The notes beneath the pieces are model-generated. The model did no database searches. It saw only the letters and a list, made by a program, of their open reading frames with translations, and was not told the origin of the DNA. 64,000 bases of DNA from an uncultured Roseburia sp. (GTDB lineage: Bacteria; Bacillota; Clostridia; Lachnospirales; Lachnospiraceae): NCBI GenBank assembly GCA_947649645.1, contig CANSSP010000016.1:1-64000 (forward strand). Reading direction: 5' to 3'. The position numbers and the translations under genes are program-made. Positions within the stretch are counted from its first letter, which is position 1, and every line of letters starts with the position of its first letter. Below are positions 39,849 through 49,937 of the stretch, in pieces.

Positions 39849-42800
39849 TCACTCTCCTGTCCTCGGACTCCTCATCCTTCCGCTGCCCGGCCTTCTCTCC
39901 GCGGAGCCGTTCCCGTCCGTCCCCGCGGACGGCGCCCCGCCGGAGGCGTCATCGTTACTGCCTTCATCCGTGCCGCCAGGGACCTCCGCCTCTGATGCGT
40001 CATCCCTTACACGGGCGGACGGTTCACGCACGTCACTGCCTCCATCCTCCTTTCCGCCGGACGGCATCTCAGGCCCGGACGGCGTCTCCTCCGGACCGGA
40101 CGGTGTCTCCTCCGGCTCCGCGGATGTCTTCCCCGGCCCGATGACGATCACATAGTCGGACGCGTGTGAAAACGACAGGCTCGTCGTTCCGTCCTCCGCG
40201 ATCCCGCCGGAACTGATGAACACCAGCTTTCCGGTACTGTCGTAATAATACAGGTTCCCGGTCCCGCCGGCATGCCCGCTTCCGAGATTTAACGTGAGAT
40301 CCGCCCGGAAGCCGAAGTCGCCGTCGTGCGTGAGCGACAGCTGCCTTGCCGGGCTGTCTCCCGCAAGTTCCTGCACCAGGCCGGGCGGCACGGCGTCCGT
40401 ATCCACCTTCACTTCCAGGTCAATGTCACGCTGCTCCGTCGCCAGCACGTCCAGGCCGTTGACGGTCCAGCTGTATGTCCCCATGTCAAGGACCACCGCA
40501 ACGCTCCGGTCCCGGATCGCCTCCAGGACCTCCTTCGGGATCACCGTCGCCTTCCCCATGTCGACCCTGACCGTCTCACCGTCAGACGCTTCCTGTGCCT
40601 TTTTCACGATCTCCTCAATCTCTTCTTCCGTAAGGCGCACGCCGCCCGTCGTTTCCGGCGGGGTTTCTCCGCCCTTCCGTTCCGCGTCCGCAACGGTAAA
40701 CTCCATGTCGCCCGTGACCTTCACCGCCGCGCCTGCGCCGTACCCTTCCCAGACGATATTTCTGTATGTCTCATTCTCAGACGGAAGCCTGAACGATGCC
40801 CCCTTATCCGCAACCGCATATTCACGGCTGCCGTCGGGATATCTCATTGTAATGAAACAGTTATAATATACTGCCGTAAAATCAATCTCCCGGTACTGTT
40901 CCAGTTTTTTCGTGGTGTTTCCCTTCCACTCCGACAGCCGCAGGCCTTTATAGTGCTCCGCATCCTTAAAAGCACCCGTTGCCTGTCCTTCCAGGTCGGC
41001 GTCCGACGGGTCCTCCCCGTCCGCAAGCACCATCTTTTTTACTTCCGCCATCTTCCCGTCCGTACCGCGGTAGGCAAGCAGGGTGTCCACCGTCGTCTTC
41101 CCCCGGTAGACCGCCGTCACGTCCAGCTGGAGGGAGGAGCCGGGCACATCGTCCGCGTCCCCCTCATAGTCCGGCAGGATCCATTTCTCAAACGCCGCGC
41201 CGCTGACGTCCTCCGGCGTCTCAAGGCCCGCGAGGACGTCGCTGAGCCGCGTCCCGGCCGGGTACGTCCTGCTGTCCTGTCTGCTGACAGGGCTGCCGTA
41301 CCGGTCAAAATAATGCAGCGTGCATGCCACCTGGGTTCCGGCATAATTCGTGCTTACCGAAAGATTCGCCACATCCCCCACTTTCGTGTCCTCATCAGCG
41401 CCGGAGAGCTCAAACCCGTCAAAATCGCCGGTTCTGGCGTCCTCCGGCAGTTTCAGCGCATCCAGCACGTCACGGAAGGATGCTTCCCTGTCGACAAACA
41501 CGGGAACGTTGACCGTTTTCGTCTCCCCGGAAAGGGTCATGTAAGTGAGGGCGACATTCGCGCATCCCTTGTCGTAGCAGGCCGTGAATGTGCACGCTGC
41601 TGCATCGGGAAATATAAACTTTGTATCTGCATCTGCCACTTTATTATTATTATATTTCCAGCCGGAAGGTGCATTTCCCTCCAGCGGCTGCTGTAAAATC
41701 CCCAGTTCCTCTATGCTGGCTCTTCTTCCCACATCCTTCACGACTCCGTCGAAAAGCAGCGAATCCGGAACAATGGTGCCGTCCTCCTGCTGCGCCCTTC
41801 CGTATATTTTTATCGGCACATCTTTCATGTCTTCCGCGTAGGTATTTCCTGCTTTCACCCTGTAATACCAGGGATAAGTACGATCAACATCGTCCCGAAA
41901 GTCTCTAAGATACGTTCTGTGCCCGATTTTATCATATACTGTAAGTGCTGTCAGATCCCATTCGCAAGGATATGTATCATCTGTTATGTCAATCGTTCCT
42001 GTATACTCATTTGTATCCGGATTCAGTTTTAATATTACCTCTGGCTGAGAAACTACAACATTGGAAATCATAGGAGAAAACACAGCTTTTGCCGTTTCAA
42101 CAGGATGTTCCTCAGATACCTTTACCGTGATGGTGACAACATCCCCCGCCGTTACAAACTGTCCGTTTTTATCGATCGTAATATTTTCAATCACCGGTCT
42201 TTCCGCATCAAAATCATCCCGCACAACAATAAAACTTTTCTTTTCTGAATTCCAGTTATAACTATAAAAATTGTGTACACCACTAGGATCTGTTGATATC
42301 CTCAATTTATACAATCTCCATTCTGCGGGATACGTTTTATCTGTAATCTCATACGTACCCGTCAGTCTCTGCATCTCCTCATCATAAGTCATTCGTACAG
42401 TCTGTGTCGTCGAATAACCGGGCGCCTCCATCAGCAATTCCATGGTTGCAGAACTAAACGATGTATCTTTACAGACAACATCAGCCGTATATGTCACCGT
42501 GTCACCTATTCCCAGCTTTCCATCACCGTCTAAATCATTTTCACGCATCTGCACATTGGAAATAGAAACACTTCCTGCTGATGGCCTGGGCGGTGTAGTT
42601 GTACCACAGTCCGCCGTGAATGTGTATATACACTGCCCCTTCTCGTCTCTGACCGCAAGATCTGTTTTATTTCCGGCCCGATCCACCACCCGCACGCTGG
42701 AAATAAAAAAATTAGTTCCATGAAGCCTGTCGCAGGAAAGCGTTCCGACATACAGATTTCTCTCTTCCGCTTTTGTGCATGTTACATATGAAGTACCATT

Positions 42801-43487
42801 TGATGAGATCACAATCTGAACAGATTCAATTCCGCTGTCTGCATCGTATGCCCAGACCTTAAAATGCAATGTATCATTCTTTGTCAGCGCCTGTCCGTTT
42901 TCCAGAAACTCAAACTTTTCGATCACCGGCTGATTTATATCGTACGAATCCGCCAGCGCCATAATGCCGCCCTCTTCTGCCTCCTGGCGGCGCGTGTTTT
43001 CTTCCCCTTCGCTCTCACCGGACGACTGCGTATCGTCCGCCGGCGTCTCATCTTCCGGCATTTCCGGACCGGTCGGCAGATCCGGATCAACGCCTTCCTG
43101 CTTTCCATCGGGTCTCTGCCCGTCTCCCGGCTCCGATTCCAGCCCGGGCATTTCCGTACTTTCCGCCGGCTGCATTTCGCCTGTCCCGGGCTCTTGTGCA
43201 TTCCCAGATTCCACGGCAGCTCCTTCCGTCTCATCCGTCGGCGGCACCGCCTCTGCCCCCGGTTCCGTATCCGGCTTCCGGATATCTCCCGTTTCCCGCT
43301 CACTTTCCCGTTCCCCGGCCTCACCGGTTTCCTCTGTCTCCGGCTCTCCGGCTTCCGGCGTCTCCGCCTGCACGGCGGATTCATTTTCACTGCCCTGCGC
43401 GGCCAGCCCCTGTGCCGGAGGCACTGCCGTCACCGCCAGAGATGCCGCAAGGCAAAGCCCCAGCAGTTTTCTGCCAAATTTCTTCAT
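39849..43487 (-). CDS. Large secreted repeat protein ending in a sortase-like PRTGE
   Basis: 1,212 residues. The signal peptide is MKKFGRKLLGLCLAASLAV and onward to about residue 30. Residues 32-175 are a Glu/Pro/Gly/Thr-rich low-complexity stretch. Several Ig-like beta modules follow, with repeats of the kind INQPVIEKFEFLENG and ERPVIENITIDKNG. Later come Gly/Asp-rich bacterial-repeat modules, a helical LTEEEIEEIVKKAQE segment and a Pro/Ser/Gly-rich tail with a tandem PEETPSG. The frame stops right after SPRTGE, which resembles a sortase motif but lacks the hydrophobic anchor and basic tail. Function unknown; a surface adhesin or glycan binder is likely. GGAGG precedes the ATG and a consensus promoter lies upstream. 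Confidence 0.88.
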   Translation of the reverse strand: MKKFGRKLLGLCLAASLAVTAVPPAQGLAAQGSENESAVQAETPEAGEPETEETGEAGERESERETGDIRKPDTEPGAEAVPPTDETEGAAVESGNAQEPGTGEMQPAESTEMPGLESEPGDGQRPDGKQEGVDPDLPTGPEMPEDETPADDTQSSGESEGEENTRRQEAEEGGIMALADSYDINQPVIEKFEFLENGQALTKNDTLHFKVWAYDADSGIESVQIVISSNGTSYVTCTKAEERNLYVGTLSCDRLHGTNFFISSVRVVDRAGNKTDLAVRDEKGQCIYTFTADCGTTTPPRPSAGSVSISNVQMRENDLDGDGKLGIGDTVTYTADVVCKDTSFSSATMELLMEAPGYSTTQTVRMTYDEEMQRLTGTYEITDKTYPAEWRLYKLRISTDPSGVHNFYSYNWNSEKKSFIVVRDDFDAERPVIENITIDKNGQFVTAGDVVTITVKVSEEHPVETAKAVFSPMISNVVVSQPEVILKLNPDTNEYTGTIDITDDTYPCEWDLTALTVYDKIGHRTYLRDFRDDVDRTYPWYYRVKAGNTYAEDMKDVPIKIYGRAQQEDGTIVPDSLLFDGVVKDVGRRASIEELGILQQPLEGNAPSGWKYNNNKVADADTKFIFPDAAACTFTACYDKGCANVALTYMTLSGETKTVNVPVFVDREASFRDVLDALKLPEDARTGDFDGFELSGADEDTKVGDVANLSVSTNYAGTQVACTLHYFDRYGSPVSRQDSRTYPAGTRLSDVLAGLETPEDVSGAAFEKWILPDYEGDADDVPGSSLQLDVTAVYRGKTTVDTLLAYRGTDGKMAEVKKMVLADGEDPSDADLEGQATGAFKDAEHYKGLRLSEWKGNTTKKLEQYREIDFTAVYYNCFITMRYPDGSREYAVADKGASFRLPSENETYRNIVWEGYGAGAAVKVTGDMEFTVADAERKGGETPPETTGGVRLTEEEIEEIVKKAQEASDGETVRVDMGKATVIPKEVLEAIRDRSVAVVLDMGTYSWTVNGLDVLATEQRDIDLEVKVDTDAVPPGLVQELAGDSPARQLSLTHDGDFGFRADLTLNLGSGHAGGTGNLYYYDSTGKLVFISSGGIAEDGTTSLSFSHASDYVIVIGPGKTSAEPEETPSGPEETPSGPEMPSGGKEDGGSDVREPSARVRDDASEAEVPGGTDEGSNDDASGGAPSAGTDGNGSAERRPGSGRMRSPRTGE

Positions 43488-45990: not shown

Positions 45991-46509
45991 TCACTTAAGA
46001 ATCTTTTCCTCACTCCGGAAAATGCGCAGCGTATTCAGAATTTCATCCTGCTTTGCCTCCATCACCGCCGCCTCTTCCTCCGTCATATGATCATAGCCAA
46101 AAAGATGCAGCATGCTGTGCACGATCAGAAACGCAAACTCCCGCTTTTCACTGTGTCCGTAAGATATGGCCTGCGCCTTCAGACGTTCAGCGGAAATGAC
46201 GATGTCACCCAGCATGATTTCCCCTGTGTCGGGATTAAAGTTATCCTGAAAATCCTGTTCCAGATCCGAAAACTCCCCAGCCTTCTCATAAGAGATCAGC
46301 GGAAATGACAGGACGTCCGTGGGCGCGTCAATCCCGCGGTAAGTGCGGTTGTACTCCCTGATTCCCTCATCGTCCGTCAGCGTCAGATTCACCTCCGCAT
46401 CATAAGGAAATCCCTCGTGCTCGATCGCAAACTCCACTACCTGCTCCGCCAGCGTCTCATATTCAAATGCAAACGATATGTCTCTTTCCTTTTCTATTGT
46501 AAGACTCAT
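45991..46509 (-). CDS. ybeY: Endoribonuclease YbeY (rRNA maturation factor)
   Basis: 172 residues. The zinc motif HSMLHLFGYDH (HxxxHxxxxxH type) is intact near residues 130-141. PTDVLSFPLI and GEIMLGDIVIS are further family blocks. It matures the 3' end of 16S rRNA. Its start overlaps the stop of the HD-like gene by 4 nt (ATGA). Confidence 0.96.
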   Translation of the reverse strand: MSLTIEKERDISFAFEYETLAEQVVEFAIEHEGFPYDAEVNLTLTDDEGIREYNRTYRGIDAPTDVLSFPLISYEKAGEFSDLEQDFQDNFNPDTGEIMLGDIVISAERLKAQAISYGHSEKREFAFLIVHSMLHLFGYDHMTEEEAAVMEAKQDEILNTLRIFRSEEKILK

Positions 46510-47687
46510 ATCAGCAGCCTCTCCTCTTTCACAAGATATTCTCTTATTTTCAAAAACATATTCATGCTCAGGCCCGACTTATCGTACATTCCCATCGTGG
46601 AAAAATCATTCAGCGTCTGGTAAATCACCATATCCTGATTCCACTCACTCGACATCGTCTGACTATCCAGCACCTCGAGCTTTTTAATCAGCCCGTCCAC
46701 CATATGTACAATCGCGGATTCCACCGTCGTGGGAAGCTCCAGTTCCCCATTGTATTCGCTGATTACACGAATCACCTCTTCCGGAAAACACTCCTTCTGC
46801 GCAATGCGTATCCCGCTCTCGACCAGGGATTCCCCCTCGATAATGCCGATCCGGTAATAAAATCCGGACGCCGCACAGACATTCTGATCGGCGTTCACAA
46901 GCCTGGCACATTTTCCGGACGCCCGCGAAACACGCACGGCATGCCGGTATTCCGTTTCCGAAAACTTCAAAAGCTCTCTCGCCAGCGGATAAGATTCGTC
47001 GAGAATATCCGCAAAAAAATCCAGGACCTCCGCATTTTTTGCCGCCGCAAGCTGCCCGATCACCAGAAACAGAAATACGTCCGCAACCACACCTTCCAGC
47101 GCGCCATACAGAAAAAGACTGTACTTCACCTCGCGGTAGGCCATATAATAAAACACGGACGGCATCATGACCGAGAGTGAAAAAATAACGGCTCCGCACA
47201 GATAACGACAGTGGTAGCGTTCCACTGTCATCTCCAGCATACAGCCGAAGAGAATCATCAGACAGTATAATACCATCTCCGCCATACTGCACGCACATGC
47301 CAGACACATCATGGCGTTTAAAAAGAACACGGCACAGACGCCTGTGACACGCGAAGAAAGCGCCGTCATCACAAGAGCCGCCAGAATCACCGGTTTTAAA
47401 AATTCCGGCAGATTCACCGAGAGCAGGATAACCAGGGAACAGACAAAATACCCCGCCACAACCTTCCGGTAATCCGTCTGCCGGTTTTTCGACAGCTTCT
47501 TCTTTGTCCGTTCTCCCTCCAGGACATAGACAAACAACGCGAAAAAAGCCAGAGCAGGAATCAGATACGCGATCGCCTCATCCAGAAAGAAATTCCGGAT
47601 CCGGCAAAGGCTGGCCGTAAAGCCCACAGTGATCACAAACAGCAGCACTATATTTATCACTCGCTTTGCGACAAAACGTTCTTTCAT
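46506..47687 (-). CDS. PgpH-like membrane protein with degenerate HD domain
   Basis: 393 residues. About six or seven transmembrane helices occupy residues 8-215. The rest (about 225-393) aligns by eye with the HD domain of PgpH/YqfF, the c-di-AMP phosphodiesterase normally found between phoH and ybeY. The catalytic residues are gone: the YHHS start is YRHA (247-250), the YYHDIGK core is YYRIGI (277-282), and the later His pair is missing, while Asp331 (HMVDGL) remains. The long extracytoplasmic domain before the helices in PgpH is also absent. It is very likely unable to hydrolyse c-di-AMP and may be a sensor or regulator. It overlaps phoH and ybeY by 4 nt each. Confidence 0.8.
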   Translation of the reverse strand: MKERFVAKRVINIVLLFVITVGFTASLCRIRNFFLDEAIAYLIPALAFFALFVYVLEGERTKKKLSKNRQTDYRKVVAGYFVCSLVILLSVNLPEFLKPVILAALVMTALSSRVTGVCAVFFLNAMMCLACACSMAEMVLYCLMILFGCMLEMTVERYHCRYLCGAVIFSLSVMMPSVFYYMAYREVKYSLFLYGALEGVVADVFLFLVIGQLAAAKNAEVLDFFADILDESYPLARELLKFSETEYRHAVRVSRASGKCARLVNADQNVCAASGFYYRIGIIEGESLVESGIRIAQKECFPEEVIRVISEYNGELELPTTVESAIVHMVDGLIKKLEVLDSQTMSSEWNQDMVIYQTLNDFSTMGMYDKSGLSMNMFLKIREYLVKEERLLI

Positions 47688-48706
47688 GTTCTCCTTGTCT
47701 CCTGTCTTCTCCCCCGGGCCATACTTCTGCGCGCACCACCGCCCGTCTTGTCGCGGTTCTCGTAATCCTCATAAGCTTTCACGATCTTCTGCACCAGCGG
47801 GTGACGCACGACATCGAGACTCGTCAGCTTACAGATGCCGATCTCCTCCACTTTTGCCAGCACCTTAAGCGCCACATCGAGACCGGAAGATACCCCCGGC
47901 GCAAGGTCCTTCTGCGTCGCGTCGCCCGTGATCACCGCCTTGGATCCGAAACCGATGCGTGTTAAAAACATCTTCATCTGTGCCGGAGTCGTATTCTGCG
48001 CCTCATCCAGGATGATAAACGCATTGTCGAGCGTCCGGCCGCGCATATAAGCCAGCGGCGCGACTTCAATCAGTCCTTTTTCCATATTTTTCTGAAAACT
48101 CTCGGCTCCCATAATCTGATGAAGCGCATCATAGAGAGGCCTGAGATACGGATCCACCTTGCTCTGTAAATCACCGGGAAGAAAACCCAGTTTCTCTCCT
48201 GCCTCAATCGCCGGGCGCGTCAGAATAATCCTGCCCACGTCCTCATTTTTAAAGGCGGTGATCGCCATCGCCATCGCCAGATACGTCTTTCCGGTTCCGG
48301 CCGGGCCGATGCCGAACACAATCATCTTCTCCCGTATCGCGTCGACATAGCTCTTCTGACCAAGTGTCTTTGGCTTTACCGGTCTGCCGTTTACGGTATG
48401 GCAGATGCAGTCCTCGTCAATCGCAGTGATGGCAGATTCCTTCTCTTCCGCCGCCAGCGCCAATGCGTAACTGACATTCTGCTCCGTGATCACATTGCCC
48501 CTTTTTGACAGTTCCAGAAGCTGCATGCACACATTGGAAGCACGCTTAATCTGTGACTCTGTTCCGATAAACTTTACATTTTCTCCCCTGACAATCACCG
48601 TCACCTTAAGCGCGCGCTCTATCTTTCTGATATAAGCGTCAAACTGACCGAACACATTGGCGATATGATCGGCCGGTATATTTACTGAAATCTCAGTCAG
48701 ACTCAT
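47684..48706 (-). CDS. phoH: PhoH-like ATPase (YbeZ/PhoL type)
   Basis: 340 residues. Walker A FGIGPAGTGKTYLA, Walker B NAFIILDEAQNTTPAQMKMF and SKAVITGDATQ are diagnostic of PhoH ATPases that work with YbeY in RNA and ribosome metabolism. The N-terminal region about 1-90 is the KH-like start; the C-terminus has an Arg-rich tail of about 20 residues. I choose the ATG at 48706 (SLTEISVNIP), overlapping the end of yqfD by 14 nt. An upstream extension inside yqfD is less likely. Confidence 0.95.
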   Translation of the reverse strand: MSLTEISVNIPADHIANVFGQFDAYIRKIERALKVTVIVRGENVKFIGTESQIKRASNVCMQLLELSKRGNVITEQNVSYALALAAEEKESAITAIDEDCICHTVNGRPVKPKTLGQKSYVDAIREKMIVFGIGPAGTGKTYLAMAMAITAFKNEDVGRIILTRPAIEAGEKLGFLPGDLQSKVDPYLRPLYDALHQIMGAESFQKNMEKGLIEVAPLAYMRGRTLDNAFIILDEAQNTTPAQMKMFLTRIGFGSKAVITGDATQKDLAPGVSSGLDVALKVLAKVEEIGICKLTSLDVVRHPLVQKIVKAYEDYENRDKTGGGARRSMARGRRQETRRT

Positions 48707-49937
48707 CTGTTTCCCGCCCCTCTTCCCCTGTTGTCTGGTATATCCTGGCAGGCTGATAAGAAACGATCGATTCACAGGCATCAATCGTCCCTCCTGCCAC
48801 ATACTTATTGTTCTTTTTTACTATCATAACATTTTTTCCGATAATTTGAATACCTTTTTCTTCCAAATCTGCAAGATAATTCCTCAGATTTTTTGTCGCA
48901 ATCTGCCTTATCTCCTTCTCGGAATGTGTTTTCTTTGTTTTCTGGTATTCCTGGTAAGTCTTTCTGGTCAGGGAGACCGGTAAATAAAAATTGTCTGTAA
49001 ATCGGAGCTGACTGGTATCCGACACAACAGAGCAGTGCTCAAACCCGTGTTTAAAAAACGGATTTGCAAACGCAGCCCCAAAAATTCTGATACTATAATC
49101 CGTCTTTGTATTTCCGGTCGGCGTCTCATCGATATAATCCGCTTCTATGACGTCCTCATAAGAATAAGACACCTCTGCAGTGATATCAGCATCCGCGCTC
49201 TCATAGAGGTATCCCGACACCTCGCCGCTGTCATTTCTGATCTCCAGGCTTCCGCTGACTAAAATATCGCCCGCTTTCACCTCATCCCCCGCAGCGACAA
49301 GCGGCGTTCCGCTCCGCGTCACAATATCCTGGATCACGCCGTCCTTAGACGCAATGATATCGCAGACCGTATCTTCTTTTTTCTGGTAATCCTCCTCCGG
49401 CAGCAGATTTTCCTGAATATCCACCGTCATCTTTGTCCCGTAAATTTTGACGGACGTCCAGATGACCTCACTGTAACGGCTGCGCAGCGCCTCTTCAAGC
49501 CTTGCGCAGTCAACTCTGGTCTTTTTTGCCCCAAAAGAACTTCCCTCCTCCTTAAGGAAATCCAGAATCACCTCCTCTGAGAGATAGGAATTGCCGTTTA
49601 CCTCAATATTCCAGATAAAACCGGACATATAATAGAGCAAAGCCGAGAACAGGAAAATCCCCACGGCAAAAACTTTGCGCTTCCGGTAGCGATGCGCGTG
49701 GAACGGCATGCCACATCGCCGGATAATCCTTATCTTTGTCCTCGTCTTCTTTAATATCGGCTTTAAACTGCGGAACCCTTCGACACTGATGCAAAAGCGA
49801 TACCCTTCCCCATAAGGCGTCAGATTCCAGATCAGTATATCACGGCTGCCGCATAAATTCAGGAATCGTTCCGGTGCATATCCAGTGAGCTGGACATAAA
49901 CGTATCCCCGAACATATTTCATCGCAGATAAGAGCAT
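48693..49937 (-). CDS. yqfD: Sporulation protein YqfD
   Basis: 414 residues. A cytoplasmic N-terminal segment of about 90 residues with the family motif LTGYAPERFLNLC is followed by one transmembrane helix (near 91-108, FAVGIFLFSALLYYMSGFIW) and a long extracytoplasmic region with a POTRA-like module (VNGNSYLSEEVILDFL). In B. subtilis yqfD is expressed under SigE in the mother cell. It starts 3 nt after the yqfC stop. Confidence 0.92.
   Translation of the reverse strand: MLLSAMKYVRGYVYVQLTGYAPERFLNLCGSRDILIWNLTPYGEGYRFCISVEGFRSLKPILKKTRTKIRIIRRCGMPFHAHRYRKRKVFAVGIFLFSALLYYMSGFIWNIEVNGNSYLSEEVILDFLKEEGSSFGAKKTRVDCARLEEALRSRYSEVIWTSVKIYGTKMTVDIQENLLPEEDYQKKEDTVCDIIASKDGVIQDIVTRSGTPLVAAGDEVKAGDILVSGSLEIRNDSGEVSGYLYESADADITAEVSYSYEDVIEADYIDETPTGNTKTDYSIRIFGAAFANPFFKHGFEHCSVVSDTSQLRFTDNFYLPVSLTRKTYQEYQKTKKTHSEKEIRQIATKNLRNYLADLEEKGIQIIGKNVMIVKKNNKYVAGGTIDACESIVSYQPARIYQTTGEEGRETDESD

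Follow-up and report, generated by a model that had tools for sequence, protein, structure and literature searches.

We find that a gene at the pgpH locus of an uncultured Roseburia sp. is a descendant of PgpH without the extracytoplasmic domain, and that strong purifying selection acts on its dead HD domain within its clade, where the domain is nearly as conserved as that of active PgpH. Many Gram-positive bacteria cannot do without control of c-di-AMP, for which PgpH, the 7TMR-HD protein known as Lmo1466 in Listeria and as YqfF in Bacillus, is regarded as one of the standard phosphodiesterases. The gene lies on the minus strand of the window, i.e. the whole stretch of DNA analyzed (64,000 nt; positions 1 to 64,000 of the forward strand of contig CANSSP010000016.1, assembly GCA_947649645.1), at 46506..47687. 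It starts with ATG and encodes 393 aa, and its assignment as a PgpH-derived membrane pseudo-phosphodiesterase is based on the open reading frame and on profile homology. We favor the view that it is a pgpH orthologue turned pseudoenzyme, in which a rebuilt, metal-free pocket would serve a membrane-anchored regulator while GdpP takes care of c-di-AMP turnover; we consider this account probable.

The gene sits between phoH (upstream; 47684..48802, minus strand; PF02562, E 1.8e-95) and ybeY (downstream; 45991..46509, minus strand; PF02130, E 5.8e-47), two unmistakable flanks that define the pgpH locus, as a preceding sequence-only reading had proposed. The 4-nt overlaps noted there are present as well, with an ATGA at each junction, where phoH ends and the gene starts (47684..47687, minus strand) and where the gene ends and ybeY starts (46506..46509, minus strand). 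An AGGAG-like sequence directly precedes each gene at the locus, and yqfD and yqfC are found upstream of the phoH–pgpH-like–ybeY group. After ybeY, the segment 43843-45966 (minus strand) contains a SpoVB-like flippase gene, whose score falls short of the NCBIfam cut-off, and a small ORF that weakly matches BofC_C. A 1212-aa ORF at 39849-43487 (minus strand) has a sub-threshold match to DUF7743 as its only hit.

As single-sequence Pfam and NCBIfam scans detected no HD or 7TM domain above cut-off in the window protein, its descent had to be shown by profiles. A search of the window's own genome with PF07698 likewise gave no match, and phmmer with the window protein against the PDB returned nothing relevant. 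Alignment of the window family to an intact PgpH alignment (A2) with hhalign yielded a probability of 99.4 and an E value of 1.5e-21 over profile positions 41-386, spanning the 7TM region of the window protein; the profile comparison suggested earlier thus recovered PgpH descent although the single-sequence scans were empty. In addition, PF07698 exceeds its cut-off in the relatives L017 and L024, and profile A1 recovers the solved PgpH chain 4s1b (E 5.9e-6). Among Foldseek's top chains, structural matches ranked PgpH first, followed by the HD domain of the GlyRS β subunit. The nearest public relative is 92% identical to the window protein.

A hydropathy scan revealed seven hydrophobic segments in the membrane part (residues 1-229; 47001..47687, minus strand), where a predicted model (pLDDT 74, pTM 0.53 for the entire protein) contains helices from residue 7 to 229. 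The compact dead HD domain follows (residues 232-393; 46509..46994, minus strand), with an HD fold of the PgpH type. Together with the profile match to intact PgpH, this organization bears out the earlier statement that membrane helices and an HD-like fold have been kept. The extracytoplasmic 7TMR-HDED domain (PF07697) has no match in the window protein and would find no room in 393 aa, again as stated before; this domain does not strictly define PgpH, as the intact short PgpH L204 also lacks it.

According to a review, Listeria PgpH binds two metals via H514, H543, D544, H580, H604, H605 and D648, and phosphate oxygens of c-di-AMP also coordinate these metals (PMC8177086). In an alignment including the solved chain, the equivalent residues of the window protein are H249, Y278, R279, L288, Y312, N313 and D331; five of the seven ligands are missing. 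His249 (46941..46943, minus strand), equivalent to H514, is retained in all 15 gene-bearing genera of the window's clade, and Asp331 (46695..46697, minus strand), equivalent to D648, in 14 of them. The catalytic His-Asp doublet, H543 D544, is replaced by Tyr278-Arg279 (46851..46856, minus strand), with Y278 in 15/15 and R279 in 13/15 genera (His in the other two). Tyr312-Asn313 (46749..46754, minus strand) takes the place of H604 H605, Y312 being found in 12/15 genera (Phe in three) and N313 in only eight; the positions of H580 and H605 vary among the 15 genera. Trp349-Asn350 (46638..46643, minus strand), at positions occupied by Ala and Lys in Listeria PgpH, is invariant in the clade (15/15 genera; 48/48 rows of a Y278-defined group). 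Within this group of 48 rows, R279 is present in 45, Y312 in 44, H249 in 48, D331 in 46, E311 in 47 and H328 in 39; as Y278 itself defines the group, its count of 48/48 is circular, unlike the counts in the 15-genus clade.

Two segments of the HD domain are also shortened. The spacing between positions 543 and 580 amounts to 10 residues in 67 of 78 Lachnospiraceae homologues (2-16 in the rest), compared to 36-37 in 43/43 rows from outside the family, and that between 604 and 648 to 19 residues in 70 of 78 (13-24 in the rest), compared to 44-47 outside. Both shortenings are common to all 78 homologues measured, a count that excludes L039 and L119. With His-Asp changed to Tyr-Arg, His-His to Tyr-Asn and both segments shortened, the window protein would have no catalytic site. 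The loss of the doublet observed in the sequence-only reading thus stands, together with the locus and the lack of the outer domain, whereas its assertion that YRHA lacks the metal-binding His does not: H514 corresponds to the second His of YHHS, and numbering on the solved chain puts H249 at this position, so that the "missing His" reading was discarded. The residues and the two shared shortenings strongly support the proposal of a catalytically dead PgpH descendant, which is most likely unable to hydrolyze c-di-AMP. Homology to an enzyme is here combined with the loss of essential catalytic residues, as in pseudoenzymes. In L039, a metagenome-assembled copy from the window's genus that apparently lies on the same contig as the match in G219, an in-frame deletion of approximately residues 275-317 has removed the stretch from Y278-R279 to Y312-N313 and left the ORF open.

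The window's own genome encodes CdaA as well as GdpP with DHH and DHHA1 domains. A GdpP GGDEF model matched 198 of 200 family genomes (197 above cut-off), a model that also weakly matches some control genomes; the DHH part was checked in the window's own genome only. Based on these matches, the loss of PgpH catalysis was probably affordable, and c-di-AMP turnover probably rests with GdpP. A hydrophobic 332-aa ORF without a Pfam match is located directly upstream of cdaA in the same genome (L065:2317-3315). GdpP is described as a membrane c-di-AMP phosphodiesterase whose degenerate GGDEF domain is thought to be regulatory (PMC10243994, PMC5575661). GdpP differs from the window protein in its unrelated DHH/DHHA1 catalytic domain, and it is encoded elsewhere in the same genome.

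As the genome thus encodes both c-di-AMP synthesis and a second degrading enzyme, and as the pocket positions are conserved, the window protein could be a metal-free receptor for c-di-AMP (or pApA or ppGpp), with the old pocket as the sensor and the helices as the output. We regard this as possible but doubtful, since the metals of PgpH contact the c-di-AMP phosphates (PMC8177086) and five of the seven metal-binding residues are gone here, and since two segments of the HD domain are missing.

We surveyed 200 Lachnospiraceae genomes, one per genus and many of them metagenome-assembled. The window protein had a match in 54 of them; one of these matches, in G178, is probably another HD protein, with an open frame of 540 aa and with phoH and ybeY absent from the stretch read. 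PF07698 matched 19 of the 200 genomes, four above cut-off, and full-length PgpH was not found in them, the open frames of the listed PF07698 matches reaching at most 450 aa. Of 79 Lachnospiraceae homologues chosen for their locus or for their resemblance to the window protein, not one keeps all seven metal ligands; in L026 and L030 the His-Asp doublet is still present and H580 and H605 are gone. The locus survey that had been proposed therefore revealed a dead site throughout the family; searches of the open-licence literature turned up no description of a dead PgpH from this family. Among 291 genomes of the class, the compact form was matched end-to-end only in Lachnospiraceae, the other matches being partial and involving full-length PgpH, proteins of about 480-520 aa or, in the HD core only, proteins of about 510-530 aa. 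The window's genus shows a match in 54 of 60 genomes, including 29 of the 30 good ones; G248, a 99%-complete genome of this genus, has none.

The ybeY regions were fetched from 88 genomes without a match and from 12, then three more, with a match; YbeY itself had no match in 10 of the 200 family genomes. In 83 of the 88, phoH adjoins ybeY, a count that leaves aside L014, L159, L191, L198 and L248, family loci for which the fetched stretch does not include both flanks. The other five comprise two eroded copies (L137, L181), a 213-aa ORF (L178), aroB (L119) and L159, which was not judged. Absence here means absence from the locus, and the window-protein search also missed the eroded copies L137 and L181; two of the 88 genomes, G119 and G166, have a weak PF07698 match elsewhere. 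An exact 4-nt overlap of phoH and ybeY occurs in at least 25 of the 83 genomes in which the two adjoin, a lower bound with the start codon set to the first possible one, and such overlaps are therefore a habit of the operon. The ORF between phoH and ybeY in L178 (2734-3375; genome G173) is hydrophobic, has neither an HD domain nor a Pfam match and might be what is left of the gene's membrane half. In L119 (776-1891; genome G070), the 3-dehydroquinate synthase gene aroB lies between phoH and ybeY at the place of pgpH. In the metagenome-assembled L036, phoH is split into two ORFs beside an intact dead pgpH-like gene.

Across the rest of the order, PF07698 was found in 96 of 146 genomes, only two of these 96 being Lachnospiraceae, and the open frames of the proteins concerned mostly measure 613-799 aa, with 456-523 aa in some families. 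We read 46 loci outside Lachnospiraceae, the 30 best-scoring and others chosen as short or odd, and dropped two truncated ones (L206, L242) and one off the locus (L244). The remaining 43 rows, 42 of them picked by an HDxGK motif and two pairs representing the same gene (41 distinct genes), describe good copies and are not a census; all seven ligands are present in 33, nine have Gln at 605 only and one has Gln at 543. They include short PgpH proteins of about 460 aa (451-519 aa; families f4, f21 and f22; L204, L219, L231-L241), which share the locus of the window gene and leave no room for the outer domain; L204, the one scanned, resembles the window protein in having no PF07697. Unlike the window protein, these short forms keep the site in all 15 rows (13 distinct genes), with Gln at 605 in six. 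The outer domain and catalysis were therefore lost in separate steps, and the enzyme can be kept without the extracytoplasmic domain.

In a tree of 66 proteins calculated without the ligand columns (a quick search with SH-aLRT support), 49 Lachnospiraceae rows form one branch (100), inside which 20 Y278 rows form another (100). In a tree of PhoH and YbeY, the 15 gene-bearing Y278 genera fall into one 19-row clade (95), and the remaining four genera of this clade have no gene at the locus. The latter tree requires at least 24 presence/absence changes, a figure that may be slightly too high, as L119 was counted as gene-present although aroB sits there. Given these 24 changes and the four clade genera without it, the gene is dispensable at the family scale.

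Where the gene is kept in the window's clade, dN/dS values and an identity comparison both indicate that it is maintained by selection. Among 11 close pairs, dN/dS was 0.011-0.072 for the HD region, in the nine pairs with computable dS, 0.029-0.269 for the membrane part and 0.012-0.085 for PhoH; these are rough Nei-Gojobori values, all 11 pairs coming from the Y278 clade and several dS values exceeding 1. At a PhoH identity of 0.62-0.75, mean HD identity over common columns was 0.51 in the Y278 clade (101 pairs), 0.56 in both intact short (47 pairs) and intact long PgpH (84 pairs), and 0.35 (77 pairs) and 0.34 (31 pairs) in other dead groups, with pairs that share branches and are not independent. 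Omission of the ligand columns gave 0.51 for the Y278 clade, 0.54 and 0.55 for short and long intact PgpH, and 0.35 and 0.32 for the other dead groups. Identity of the membrane part was 0.20 in the Y278 clade, 0.25 in a drifting group and 0.26-0.28 in intact PgpH. At the ligand positions, the other dead lineages show free variation. Two genera tried from drifting lineages held two genomes and one genome; the single pair gave a dN/dS of 0.34 for the membrane part, a saturated HD value and an HD identity of 0.73. Thus, even a "drifting" lineage keeps its HD domain within a genus, and the drift is across genera. The gene has met with three fates: it is frozen in one clade, drifts elsewhere and has been deleted many times.

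These data bear on the idea that the gene is a decaying relic, useless once GdpP had taken over c-di-AMP turnover and conserved merely as a leftover. Its disappearance from the locus in 83 of the 88 genomes fetched without a match, the 24 changes, the membrane-only ORF of L178 and the free variation of the other dead lineages would all fit such decay. However, the HD dN/dS in the clade is well under 1 at the species level, HD identity approaches that of active PgpH (0.51 vs. 0.56), nearly all good genomes of the genus have the gene, and the dead domain is kept better than the membrane part, which is not what one expects of a relic; we consider decay unlikely.

A little less credible still is that the protein remains an enzyme, acting on another substrate through a site that is different or binds a single metal and to which H249, D331 and E311/H328 contribute. 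The retention of these residues in the Y278 group would allow it, and H328 precedes D331 by one helical turn in the predicted model (helix 322-339). However, neither residue of the HD doublet is left, which removes even the usual mononuclear site of the HD superfamily; moreover, H328 is Gln in 8 of the 48 rows, and R279 would put a positive charge into the metal site.

Least probable of all is that the protein assists PhoH and YbeY as an adaptor in RNA or ribosome metabolism, at which the shared locus, the same wherever a gene-bearing locus includes both flanks, weakly hints: where the gene is missing, phoH and ybeY remain neighbors and often overlap, RNA binding is disfavored by the acidity of the HD domain (net charge -6; -11 to -3 in the clade, with active PgpH also acidic at -13 to -2), and active PgpH shares the locus with no RNA or ribosome role reported to our knowledge. 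The strict translational coupling from which such a role had been deduced carries little weight, given 83 genomes with phoH and ybeY adjacent in the absence of the gene, 25 of them with the same overlap, and AGGAG-like sites of the genes' own. Of the first interpretation, the dead PgpH descendant remains, and the RNA or ribosome role is unlikely.

We therefore return to a pseudoenzyme with a rebuilt pocket. As the dead domain is conserved almost like its active relatives, it probably serves a new purpose. The ligands that were kept and the residues that replaced the others are about equally fixed, for which reason a rebuilt pocket fits better than decay, although we are less sure of it than of the loss of catalysis. 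In the proposed mechanism, the former active site would have been remodeled into a metal-free pocket in which H249 and D331 stay and Y278-R279 and Y312 fill the former metal positions. R279 would probably make up for the charge of the metal; its counterpart, as a guess, is D331/E311 or a phosphate of whatever ligand is bound. Docking of a nucleotide or of a partner protein to the HD domain would then be linked to the membrane through the seven helices. The receptor or scaffold that had been suggested at the outset as a possibility is compatible with these observations, as the dead HD domain is strongly selected and the substitutions in its pocket have come close to fixation in one clade.

Several observations weigh against this account. 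Conservation of the dead HD domain does not quite reach that of the active one, R279 gives way to His in two of 15 genera, and N313 is not fixed. Both the drifting group and intact PgpH conserve the membrane part better than the clade does, and the L039 deletion of the Y278-R279 segment, the lack of a match in G248 and the dispensability of the gene at the family scale also count against it. The GlyRS β subunit provides a precedent, as its HD domain is likewise dead and has a conserved cavity: the HD motif is changed to Ser-Lys, and cavity mutations affect aminoacylation (PMC8464048). This subunit is soluble, tRNA-binding and not membrane-bound, and shows no orthology to the window protein; by analogy, it warns that the ligand of a dead HD pocket need not be a nucleotide.

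More tentatively, and with odds well below even, the rebuilt pocket could be part of a switch from enzyme to sensor that concerned the whole family. Catalysis would have been lost in the Lachnospiraceae ancestor, the Roseburia-type clade would have rebuilt the His-Asp site, now Tyr-Arg, into a metal-free receptor, for c-di-AMP or a different nucleotide, with signaling helices, and other lineages would have drifted or deleted the gene.

If annotated from its locus only, the window gene would be mislabeled as a c-di-AMP phosphodiesterase. Lachnospiraceae, a common gut family, offer a natural experiment, in which the same gene is intact in other families of the order and, within this one, dead and drifting, dead and frozen, or deleted. 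The nearly equal conservation of dead and active domains suggests a function other than catalysis, which active PgpH might have as well.
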